From assembly GCA_009840595.1 (NCBI GenBank), contig VXNK01000052.1, positions 1-40,017 on the forward strand: DNA of 40,017 nt, in the 5' to 3' direction. The notes beneath the pieces were generated by a model. The model ran no database searches. It had not been told where the DNA came from and saw only the letters and a program-made list of their open reading frames with translations. Source of the stretch: Rhodospirillaceae bacterium (GTDB lineage Bacteria > Pseudomonadota > Alphaproteobacteria > Bin65). How positions within the stretch are numbered: the stretch's first letter is position 1; each line of letters starts with the position of its first letter. Both the position numbers and the translations under genes were made by a program. This document shows positions 3,547 to 9,983 of this stretch, one piece after another.

Positions 3547-4701
3547 ATGCCCGCCAGTTCCGCCCCCGCCGGTTCGACACCGGTCGAGACCTTCGATTAC
3601 CGTCACAGCCCGTTGCCGGTCCGCGAGGGCCTGGCGGCGTCCCAGCGGCGCGCGTGGACGCGGCTGGCCGAACCCGGCGAATGGTGGCCGGGCGCGGTCC
3701 GCATCGCCATCGCCGAGGAGACCCGCGCGGCGACCGCCTGCGCCTTCTGCGCCGAACGCAAGGCGGCGCTCTCGCCCTACGCCGTCACCGGCCGGCACAC
3801 CGCGGCGACCGACCTGCCGGACGTTCTGGTCGACACCGTCCACCGCATCCGCACCGACCCGGAGCGCCTGACCCGCCGGTTCTGCGACGCGGCGCTGGCC
3901 GGCGGGCTGAGCGACGGGGAATATGCCGAGACGGTCGCCGTCGTCGCCACGGTCGTCGCCGTCGATACCTTCTGCGACGCCATGGGGCTGCCGCGCCACG
4001 CGCTGCCCGAACCGGTTGCCGGCGAACCGCGCCGGCGGCGGCCTCCCGGCGCAAAGCCGGGGCTGGCCTGGATCGCAACGGTCGCGCCCGAGGACGTGAC
4101 GGAAGGCGAGGCCGGCATGTATGACGGGCTGGCCGGCGTGAACATCCACCGGGCGCTTTCGCTCGCGCCCGCCGAAGTCGCCGGCTTCTTCGATCTCGAC
4201 GCCGAGCATTATCTGCCCGATGCGCAGCTGCGCGATTTCGGCGTCGAATACCGCGCGCTCACCCATGCCCAGATCGAGTTTCTCGCCGCCCGGGTCTCGG
4301 CGATCAACCAGTGCGTCTACTGAACCACCAGCCACGCGGTGCTGCTCCGTGGGAGCGGCGAGCATACCGGCGACGACTACGACCTGACGGCCATTGTCGA
4401 TGATGGCGGGAGCGGCGGCGGACCCGGCGTTGGGGTCGCCGCGGCGGCGGCGCTGACCGCCTATGCCGACGCCTTCTTCGACGACGGCCGGGATTTCGCC
4501 GCAGCCCGGGACCGGCTGCACGCGGAAATCGGCGGCGAAGCGCTGGTCGACGCCGCCGGCGTGCTCGCCATCTTCAACGCGGTCGTGCGCATCGCCGACG
4601 CGACCGGCATTCCGCTGGAAGACCAGAAGGCCGAAATGTCGGCCGATTTCCGCGCCGTGCTGGGTATCGACGACTATCCCGCCGCTGCCGGGAAAGTCTG
4701 A
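3547..4701 (+). CDS. AhpD/CMD-family selenoprotein candidate (UGA at 4321)
   Basis: This frame is interrupted only by TGA at 4321-4323 and then stays open, with the same GC3-rich codon use, to TGA at 4699. Read through, it gives 384 residues in two AhpD-like halves. The first half carries ACAFCAERK (Cys65-Cys68). The second reads INQCVY-U-TTSHAVLLR, so Cys256 and residue 259 form CxxU followed by His263, exactly where AhpD proteins carry CxxC...H. The UGA therefore replaces the redox cysteine, the classic signature of selenocysteine. A SECIS-like hairpin follows. AhpD proteins are thiol peroxidases or reductants, and AhpD-like selenoproteins are known from metagenome surveys. The ATG at 3547 has GGGAG upstream. 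No selA, selB, selC or selD is in this window. The alternative is a Cys-to-stop mutation (TGC or TGT to TGA). Confidence 0.8.
4341..4359 (+). promoter_or_regulatory. Putative bacterial SECIS hairpin
   Basis: Seventeen bases after the UGA, GCTGCTC (4341-4347) pairs with GAGCGGC (4353-4359), including one G-U pair, around the loop CGTGG. The stem can close further to leave GTG. Bacterial SECIS elements lie inside the coding region just after UGA, with the apical loop roughly 16-37 nt downstream and a G among the first two loop bases. Both conditions hold here. A partial outer pairing of GGT (4338-4340) with ACC (4366-4368) is possible. Confidence 0.6.
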
Positions 4702-4848: not shown

Positions 4849-5127
4849 CTAGTCCCCTTTCGACGCCGCCGCCATGGCCGCGTCGTCGAACGCCGGCAGG
4901 CTCTCGAAGGATCCGAAGCCCTGTTTCACATACCACACGGAGAAATTCAGCATGGCTTCCGGCGACGGCGCGTTCGCGACATCGACGAAATCGTACCGGC
5001 CCTGGGTGTAGTTGATCGAATCGAACTCGATGCCGAGCTCGCTGGCCTTGGCGCGCGCCCGCTTCAGCCGTTCGTCGTGCCTGGTGAGCCACTCGTCGCT
5101 CTGCTTGCCGAGCAGTACATATTTCAT
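4849..5127 (-). CDS. GYD domain-containing protein
   Basis: This is a 92-residue protein beginning MKYVLLGKQSDEWLTRHDER, with a later stretch INYTQGRYDFVDVANAPSPE. This is the GYD-family pattern: a small alpha/beta domain named for a Gly-Tyr-Asp motif, here GRYDFV near residues 43-48. The biochemical role of the family is not established. The ATG at 5127 has AGGGAG upstream. The longer open frame to 5247 adds residues with no family match. The gene converges on the AhpD-like gene and is transcribed away from the exporter at 5424. Confidence 0.82.
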   Translation of the reverse strand: MKYVLLGKQSDEWLTRHDERLKRARAKASELGIEFDSINYTQGRYDFVDVANAPSPEAMLNFSVWYVKQGFGSFESLPAFDDAAMAAASKGD

Positions 5128-5423
5128 GACAATCTCCCTGTTGCGGGCTCCCTGTTGCGGGGCGCGGTCCCTGTCCGGATTCCGGCGCCCGCCGCGGTTA
5201 TCGACCGGCCGGACTCCGCCCTGACCGGGCTTCCCCGCCGCAGCCACGCGGCACGTCGCATACGGCAGCCGCGCCCGTCAACGCTCGATTCGGCACACGC
5301 GCCACGCTTGCCCGTCGCGGGCATTCGTTGCAAGGTTGCGCGGTCACGGCGGCAGGAAATCGGCCGCCGGGCCCGGGCAGAAAGCGCCGCACTCAAAACC
5401 TTCCGTCAGTTCGGCACGTCGAT

Positions 5424-7877: not shown

Positions 7878-9905
7878 TCAGGCGGGCAGTTCCCGCCTTT
7901 GCTCGACGACGCGGAATTTCAGCTTCTTGGTCGGCTTCATCGACGGAATCGGGTTGAATCTGAGCTCATAGTTCGATGGAGACACCGAAATCGTAAAGTA
8001 ATGCGCGATCATCATCATGTTGACCGTCATTTGCAGAAGCGCCTGCCGGATGCCGAGACAGGTGTGCGTGCCCAGTCCGTACGGCGCAAACCCGAAACTG
8101 CGGTGCGCGCTGCGCGGCGGCAGGTAGCGGTCGATATCGAACGAGAAGGGATCGGGGAACACCTCCTCCATATAGTGCGACGCCGCCTGGGCGATATAGA
8201 CGCGCGACCCGACCGGCAGTTCGTGCCCCTCGACCACACAGGAGTTCACCACATCCCGCACGGACATCGAGATGACAGGGTACATGCGCAGACATTCCTG
8301 AAGGAAGCGTTGAGTAACGTCGGTGGCGGATGGAGTGAAATCCTCGCCATGCGGATCGCCGTTGTCGAACAGGGCATCCGCCTCGCTTCGGATTCTGTCG
8401 TGGAGTTCAGGCTGCGAAACCATGGCGTAGATCGCGAAGCTGAGCATATCGCCGAAATACACGCTGGTTAGCCCCGTCGCCGTCAGAGCGAATCGCAGAT
8501 TCGATTCCGGCACCAATTGCGGATCGCTCACATTCAGGCCCAGCACGTCGTCTGCAAGGTTCCGCGGGCAACCGGCCCGCTGGGCGGGCGTGTGAACGCG
8601 CCGGACCCGTTCCAGCATCTCGTCAATGGCTTTCGCCCGGCGTTTCATGCCCGGAGTCTTCAGCATGAATTTGGGCATGGTCTTTATGATGTGAACGCTG
8701 AGCGCCCGTTCCTTGTAGGTGACCAGATCGTCGATCAGGTCCTGCGTATCGACCCCGACGTGGAGAGACGAGATCTGCTTGTTGACCATGCTTCGACACA
8801 TGGACCTGGCCGGGTAGGTCTCTCCGACCGCCCAACCCGCCATGAACCCGCGGACAAGATGGAAAAGCTGGTCGAGCTGGCCGGCCAGCCGTTCGCGTGA
8901 ATACGCCGGCGACATGGCCTTGCGAAGCCGGAAGTGATCGCCGCCGTCCAGCGACGGCAATACACCCGACGCGCCGAAGACTCTCTCGAAGTCGGCAAAA
9001 TAACCTCCGGCCCTCAGGTGCATCCGCCCGGTCTTGTGCACCCACCGGTTGACCGACGGGCCGGCGAGAAAGGTCATGGGTTTGGCAGTCGGCAGACGTA
9101 TCTGGAATACCGGGCCATACTCTTTGGCAAGGTCCGCAAAGAGCGCAGGAAGATGGCCCTTGCGCAGATGCCGATTCGCCAGCAGACGATGCAATGGAAC
9201 CTGCGGCATGCGCCGGGACAGAGCCGTGGGGCGACCCATTGGGCTGGAGATATTCTGTTCGACCGCCTCGGCTATGGAACGGCCGATCAGGTCCATCTTG
9301 CAGATAAGCTCGATCCGCTCTTCCGCCTGCTCGTCGAGTTCGAACATGAAGCGAAAGACGTCGCATGTATTGACAAGGCAAATGACGATCACATCCCTGG
9401 GATCGGGAAGCGTGTCGGTGAAGATGGCCTCGCTGATGCGCGTCTTGATGAACTGACTTGCAGAGCTCTCTTCCGCATCGCCTTGTCCCTGCACGAACCA
9501 GCGGGCGGGATTCAGCGTCCAGAAGTCGCCGTCATGATGTTCCAGGATCTTCCGATCCACCAGATTTTCCAGCGTCAGATCGATGACCGGCTCAATCTGG
9601 GCGGCGAGCCGTTCGATCCAGTACAGGGTGGTCCTTTGAACGGGTTCGTCCGCGATTTCTTTCAGTATCGGGTCCAGTGCGGGATCCCCGGTCTCCGTTC
9701 GGTCCAGGAGGACCAGCGACTCCATATCCGTGTCGATGCGGGAACGGAGCGAGAGTTCCGCAAGCACCGCGCCGGCGACGACGCATTGCAACCTCCAGCC
9801 GGGAACCTGGTGGAAGTACCCGGTCTCCTCGTTGAGGAGCATCAGGATGATCTCTTCGGGCAGACCCAGCGATTGGGCCGTCACACGCTCGGCAGAATCA
9901 GGCAT
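7878..9905 (-). CDS. GPP34-cytochrome P450 fusion protein
   Basis: This is a 675-residue two-domain protein. Residues about 10-220 match GPP34 (GOLPH3-like): SLGLPEEIILMLLNEETG, VVAGAVLAELSLRSRI, then DPILKEI and LPDPRDVIVICLVNTCD. In eukaryotes GOLPH3 binds phosphoinositide and glycosyltransferases; the bacterial role is unknown. Residues about 225-675 are a cytochrome P450 with helix-K ExxR (Glu537-Arg540 in ECLRMYP) and the heme loop FGFAPYGLGTHTCLGI with proximal Cys616. The frame is continuous with no stop between domains. The oxygen-activating acid/Thr pair of helix I is not obvious (LTSVYFGDMLSF, residues 479-490). The ATG at 9905 has AGGGAGG upstream; an ATG at 9983 would add 26 basic residues. 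The substrate is unknown, and no ferredoxin or reductase gene is near. Transcription converges on the MMPL exporter. Confidence 0.9.
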   Translation of the reverse strand: MPDSAERVTAQSLGLPEEIILMLLNEETGYFHQVPGWRLQCVVAGAVLAELSLRSRIDTDMESLVLLDRTETGDPALDPILKEIADEPVQRTTLYWIERLAAQIEPVIDLTLENLVDRKILEHHDGDFWTLNPARWFVQGQGDAEESSASQFIKTRISEAIFTDTLPDPRDVIVICLVNTCDVFRFMFELDEQAEERIELICKMDLIGRSIAEAVEQNISSPMGRPTALSRRMPQVPLHRLLANRHLRKGHLPALFADLAKEYGPVFQIRLPTAKPMTFLAGPSVNRWVHKTGRMHLRAGGYFADFERVFGASGVLPSLDGGDHFRLRKAMSPAYSRERLAGQLDQLFHLVRGFMAGWAVGETYPARSMCRSMVNKQISSLHVGVDTQDLIDDLVTYKERALSVHIIKTMPKFMLKTPGMKRRAKAIDEMLERVRRVHTPAQRAGCPRNLADDVLGLNVSDPQLVPESNLRFALTATGLTSVYFGDMLSFAIYAMVSQPELHDRIRSEADALFDNGDPHGEDFTPSATDVTQRFLQECLRMYPVISMSVRDVVNSCVVEGHELPVGSRVYIAQAASHYMEEVFPDPFSFDIDRYLPPRSAHRSFGFAPYGLGTHTCLGIRQALLQMTVNMMMIAHYFTISVSPSNYELRFNPIPSMKPTKKLKFRVVEQRRELPA

Positions 9906-9983
9906 TGGCCGTAGCCTCCCTGCTTCCGGATCCGTGACGCGGTACGGAGCGGGCATCCTTCGGCACCGGCGATGGGACCGCAC

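Follow-up and report, generated by a model that had tools for sequence, protein, structure and literature searches.

The gene, its product and its family

The window analysed in this study is a stretch of 40,017 nucleotides from a Rhodospirillaceae bacterium (contig VXNK01000052.1 of assembly GCA_009840595.1), and a complete gene on its forward strand, at positions 3547–4701, very probably encodes an AhpD-related selenoprotein of the NCBIfam family NF041238 ('alkylhydroperoxidase-related (seleno)protein'). The frame extends from the ATG at 3547 to a terminal TGA at 4699–4701 and contains a single internal TGA at 4321–4323, which would be decoded as selenocysteine (Sec). The translation gives a product of 384 residues with Sec at position 259, in the motif C256-V-Y-U259-TTS-H263, and with Cys65 and Cys68 in the first half.

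The neighbouring genes encode an amidase and a GYD-domain protein, both on the reverse strand, and an MMPL/RND transporter on the forward strand. They do not form an evident operon with the selenoprotein gene, and operon context was therefore rejected as a hint to function. The amidase and MMPL genes adjoin the gene in the closest orthologue too, and the GYD-domain gene (4849–5247, reverse strand), which is convergent with the selenoprotein gene, keeps this adjacency in the five closest orthologues. Elsewhere in the window, one reverse-strand frame at 7878–9983 joins a GPP34 (Golgi phosphoprotein 3-like) domain to a following cytochrome P450 domain, a combination that looks unusual.

The window protein matched NF041238 at 450.6 bits (cut-off 175) over positions 1–356 of the 357-position profile, shares with the family the CxxU motif and the two halves, and contains nothing that would exclude it from membership. 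The motif C-F/V-Y-U-T of the family, whose short name is AhpD_rel_CFYUT, appears as CVYUT at residues 256–260 of the window protein; among other members, those from Gammaproteobacteria have CFYUT. Two paralogues in the same assembly (C80:81099–82226 and C154:5907–6974), both 47% identical to the window protein, also match NF041238, giving the genome three copies; no match for the family was found on plasmids. With Pfam CMD (PF02627) the window protein scored 22.3 bits, just below the gathering score of 23, and one paralogue (L002) passed at 28.6 bits. CMD alone, with no sestrin family beside it, was listed for the window protein in Pfam at E-values up to 1, in a search where the HMMER filters drop weak matches. 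TIGR00777, which represents AhpD in the strict sense, gave 15.4 bits against a cut-off of 191.95, and the protein is far under the AhpD equivalog cut-offs.

An initial sequence-only reading of this locus had supposed that the fused two-domain form might be new, and this supposition has to be withdrawn. NF041238, matched over its whole length, is a CxxU family that used to go by the name 'hypothetical protein 1', given to it in work on the Sargasso Sea metagenome (PMC13188914, 2026). For 'hypothetical protein 1', a 2005 study had reported Sec sequences, four in number, together with Cys homologues, as well as a predicted SECIS element and a suggested redox function (PMC1088965), and fused two-AhpD proteins of bacteria were described in 2024 (PMC11429811). 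Neither the selenoprotein nor its two-half length is thus new. The AhpD-like 1 and 2 selenoproteins of the GOS data, which were filed under the general AhpD/CMD families COG2128 and pfam02627, have CxxU in an AhpD-type motif as the window protein does (PMC2398784). NF041238 has been catalogued, yet it is uncharacterised.

The internal TGA, its hairpin and the Sec machinery

The frame continues for 125 codons beyond the TGA with similar codon bias, as the sequence-only reading had observed, and the G+C content by codon position is indeed similar on both sides (0.75/0.55/0.88 upstream and 0.78/0.50/0.84 downstream). However, 8.8% of mononucleotide shuffles of this G+C-rich DNA stay open over 125 codons. 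Because such frames are common at high G+C, an open frame of this length is weak evidence by itself, and frame length with codon bias was rejected as sole proof of Sec; what decides the Sec call is comparative evidence.

In an alignment of 33 full-length members, one of them the window gene, all 33 have TGA at the Sec position; they come from the taxonomic family of the window genome, from other Alphaproteobacteria, from Gammaproteobacteria (OM182, K189A) and from one 'Deltaproteobacteria' MAG. The same codon was found at 18 further loci in a class search, giving 51 homologues read at the site in all, with no Cys codon seen. Both paralogues of the window genome carry one in-frame TGA each, at the same position as that of the window gene. 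Each of 80 NF041238 members listed from the Alphaproteobacteria class sample and two orders has exactly one internal TGA, its location at the Sec codon being established for the individually read members only. Cys variants, some of which the literature reports (PMC1088965), were not found among 385 class genomes and the two orders. Among the five closest orthologues dN/dS was ~0.13–0.21 after the TGA versus 0.19–0.27 before it, and purifying selection is as strong downstream as upstream.

These data also bear on whether the TGA is a true stop, caused by a nonsense mutation, a pseudogene or a sequencing error, which would leave a 258-residue protein truncated in the second domain. TGA does end genes in this genome, the window gene itself among them, but the identical TGA in 51 homologues, two of them paralogues in the same genome, the purifying selection beyond it and the presence of Sec machinery make such a stop exceedingly improbable. 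Chance nonsense had been judged unlikely from the sequence; together with a pseudogene and a sequencing error, it is ruled out by the conservation of TGA in all homologues. The reading of TGA 4321–4323 as a Sec codon is, on the comparison of sequences, strongly supported.

The genome search and the alignment of close homologues that the sequence-only reading had proposed both gave the outcome expected of a selenoprotein. A complete Sec machinery was found: selA, selB and an Ndh-SelD fusion scored above curated cut-offs, and together with a tRNA-Sec whose anticodon is UCA they cluster within 5.7 kb (C80:75267–80910). Across genomes, selA was present in 27 of 27 family-bearing genomes compared with 56 of the 385 class genomes overall (hypergeometric 3e-26, phylogeny ignored). 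Linkage of a family member to sel genes was seen in 8 of the 27 family-bearing genomes, from four families. In the window genome (G000), G004 and G017 the family member follows selA-selB-selC in opposite orientation, with Ndh-selD between them in G000 and G004; in G486, G513 and G607 the gene order is another one, the family member lying on the other side and adjoining selC, selD and selA; and in G002 and G003 it lies within ~6 kb of selA, judged by coordinates. The window copy itself is unlinked to sel genes.

Two gene arrangements may be recorded here as observations in their own right. In the segment C80:75267–82232 of the window genome, the series selA-selB-tRNA-Sec(UCA)-Ndh/SelD fusion is closed by an NF041238 gene that runs on the opposite strand. 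In another genome, G671, two NF041238 selenoprotein genes stand in tandem on the same strand (C9:214157–216428), with one TGA each.

The hairpin noted in the sequence-only reading, starting 17 nt after the TGA and having a G in its apical loop, was recovered by folding at 4340–4360 (nt +17 to +37 after the UGA), with nine pairs and the apical loop GUG at 4349–4351. Its folding energy is ordinary in this G+C-rich DNA (z = -0.15 against dinucleotide shuffles) and is weak as proof of a SECIS element, and codon choice and covariation were used instead. Against synonymous-codon shuffles, the hairpin of the window gene gave z = -2.8, with 0 of 200 shuffles folding as well; the same test was weak across the family (mean z -0.65). 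In the 42 distinct sequences, CTC is used for Leu267 in 41, AGC for Ser270 in 40 and CGT for Arg268 in 34, CGT making up ~6% of the Arg codons elsewhere in these genes. The CUC/GAG stem is paired in 41–42 of the 42 unique sequences. The pair +25/+29 is C-G in ten sequences, A-U in six and open in the other 26, which have a five-base loop. The A-U form is that of the third-paralogue group, in which the rare Arg codon AGG replaces CGT and the opposite base has changed too, so that the change is compensatory; the third paralogue of the window genome (C154:5907–6974) has this hairpin, with AGG and the compensating base. The G at +26 is constant, and Arg codons demand G there anyway. As a stem-loop just 3' of the UGA with a G in the apical loop, the segment qualifies as a putative bacterial SECIS element.

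The two predicted AhpD-fold halves

The AlphaFold2 model of the whole protein (pLDDT 86.7, pTM 0.89) predicts two halves that both have the AhpD fold. The C-terminal half, residues about 208–369 (4168–4653), resembles PDB 6k40 in fold (Z 13.1 over model residues 172–367) as well as in sequence profile (E 1.5e-13). It carries the predicted catalytic motif E244-x11-C256-x-Y258-U259-x3-H263 (4276–4335), all five positions of which are invariant in 33 of 33 members, in agreement with the earlier view that CxxU stands in for CxxC and that the relay His follows. This half shows the AhpD/CMD motif E-x11-C-x2-C(U)-x3-H in an all-helical fold, with spacing identical to that of Glu74, Cys86, Tyr88, Cys89 and His93 in YP_296737.1 (PDB 2prr; PMC4674687). 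Single-domain peroxidase-related AhpD proteins (PDB 6k40, 2prr, 3c1l, 2oyo; TIGR01926) have the C-half fold and the Glu-Cys-Tyr-Cys-His spacing in common with the window protein, whereas they consist of one domain, have a second Cys in place of Sec and have no N-half.

The N-terminal half, residues 17–163 (3595–4035), was modelled alone with pLDDT 95 and pTM 0.90. The 11 best structural matches to it are without exception AhpD/CMD-fold proteins, with Z 7.1–9.0, and the next row has Z 3.8; these values are modest for a helical fold, and it is the gap and the uniformity of the matches that support the AhpD assignment. A sequence profile of this half gave no meaningful match in the PDB. The sequence-only reading had described it as a normal CxxC-type half, and this description stands in part. 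The motif C65-A-F-C68 (3739–3750) has both Cys in 33 of 33 members and lies in a half with a predicted AhpD fold, but the half departs from a normal AhpD active site, because Lys72 is at the position where His is expected and the Glu that should precede C65 by 12 residues is missing. For the CxxC of the N-half, a structural role, metal binding and internal electron donation are all conceivable.

Among solved structures, Sestrin2 comes closest to the AlphaFold2 model over both halves (Z 17.0, 239 residues, 3.5 A, 12% identity). In Sestrin2 the AhpD-type fold is duplicated; the N-half holds Cys125, Tyr127 and His132, and the C-half has been turned to GATOR2 binding (PMC4674687). Human Sestrin2 (PDB 5dj4, 5t0n, 5cuf) and the modelled window protein both consist of two AhpD-fold domains fused in a single chain, and both show the C-x-Y-x4-H pattern. 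In contrast to the window protein, Sestrin2 has its active site in the N-half with the single Cys125, uses its C-half as a GATOR2/leucine module and has no Sec. The roles of the halves are reversed relative to Sestrin2, the canonical active site, with Sec, being C-terminal here. Other Sestrin traits, namely an N-half catalytic Cys with its relay and a helix-loop hinge bearing the acidic DDYDY at the active site of the C-half, are absent from the window protein, and its C-half active-site helix is intact in the AlphaFold2 model. The segment GDDYDL (residues 275–280) was considered as the Sestrin DDYDY and rejected, as only D279-L280 is conserved and the segment lies after the active-site helix.

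A 2024 paper, which does not cover selenoproteins, presented fused AhpDs from bacteria as analogues of Sestrin; in two of these the C-half is catalytic and the N-half is free of Cys (PMC11429811). The fused proteins of Corynebacterium, Comamonas and Ca. Rokubacteria have two AhpD domains per chain like the window protein, and in those of Corynebacterium and Comamonas the C-half is likewise the catalytic one. They were described as Cys proteins; unlike the window protein, those of Corynebacterium and Comamonas lack Cys in the N-half (PMC11429811).

Possible function and its alternatives

The window protein is most likely a Sec-dependent alkyl-hydroperoxide reductase. SelB and Sec-tRNA(Sec) would decode the UGA at 4321 as Sec, aided by the hairpin at 4340–4360, and the product would join two AhpD-fold domains in a single chain, in the manner of a fused AhpD dimer. 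Sec259 and Cys256, with Tyr258, His263 and Glu244, would form an AhpD-type redox centre in the C-half, where hydrophobic (alkyl or lipid) hydroperoxides could be reduced via a Se-S intermediate, and the Se-S bond would be reopened by some dithiol. The N-half would have lost the proton relay and kept the invariant CxxC. Taken alone, a peroxidase function appears reasonably probable; it is argued from motif and fold, because the Pfam CMD score is just under the gathering score and the AhpD equivalog cut-offs are far from being reached.

The AhpD/CMD fold also includes the debrominase Bmp8, and the window protein could be a Sec protein of this fold other than a peroxidase, e.g., a Bmp8-like reductive dehalogenase or a thiol-disulfide or selenium-handling enzyme tied to the Sec machinery. 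Bmp8 ties with AhpD among the single-domain structural matches (Z 13.2 versus 13.1), and a selenium-metabolism role would fit the position of a family member beside tRNA-Sec, selD and selA in at least six genomes with two gene orders. We nevertheless consider a non-peroxidase function quite unlikely, as the complete Glu-Cys-Tyr-Sec-His relay known from alkylhydroperoxidases is invariant and the window copy is unlinked to sel genes; the linkage seen elsewhere may reflect joint inheritance of the Sec trait and not function.

For the preferred hydroperoxide reductase, the dithiol that reopens the Se-S bond might be the CxxC of the N-half, in which case the protein would carry its own resolving step. 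This suggestion is a tentative one. C65 and C68 are invariant in all 33 members in a half otherwise without a relay, and the Cys-free N-half of the fused AhpDs of Corynebacterium and Comamonas also speaks for it (PMC11429811); however, the two Cys, together with the invariant H84 and H99, could bind metal instead.

The family never swaps Sec for Cys in our sample, recurs beside Sec-machinery genes and shares the two-domain plan of Sestrin. It is conceivable, if rather doubtful, that NF041238 represents a bacterial, Sec-only equivalent of the architecture of sestrins, i.e., a fused AhpD dimer with a Sec peroxidase in the C-half and an N-half turned into a CxxC donor or sensor, carried with the Sec-machinery genes as a unit. 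Biochemistry on NF041238 would give the family its first function, and the family may serve as a bacterial reference point for the division of labour between the halves of fused AhpD dimers.
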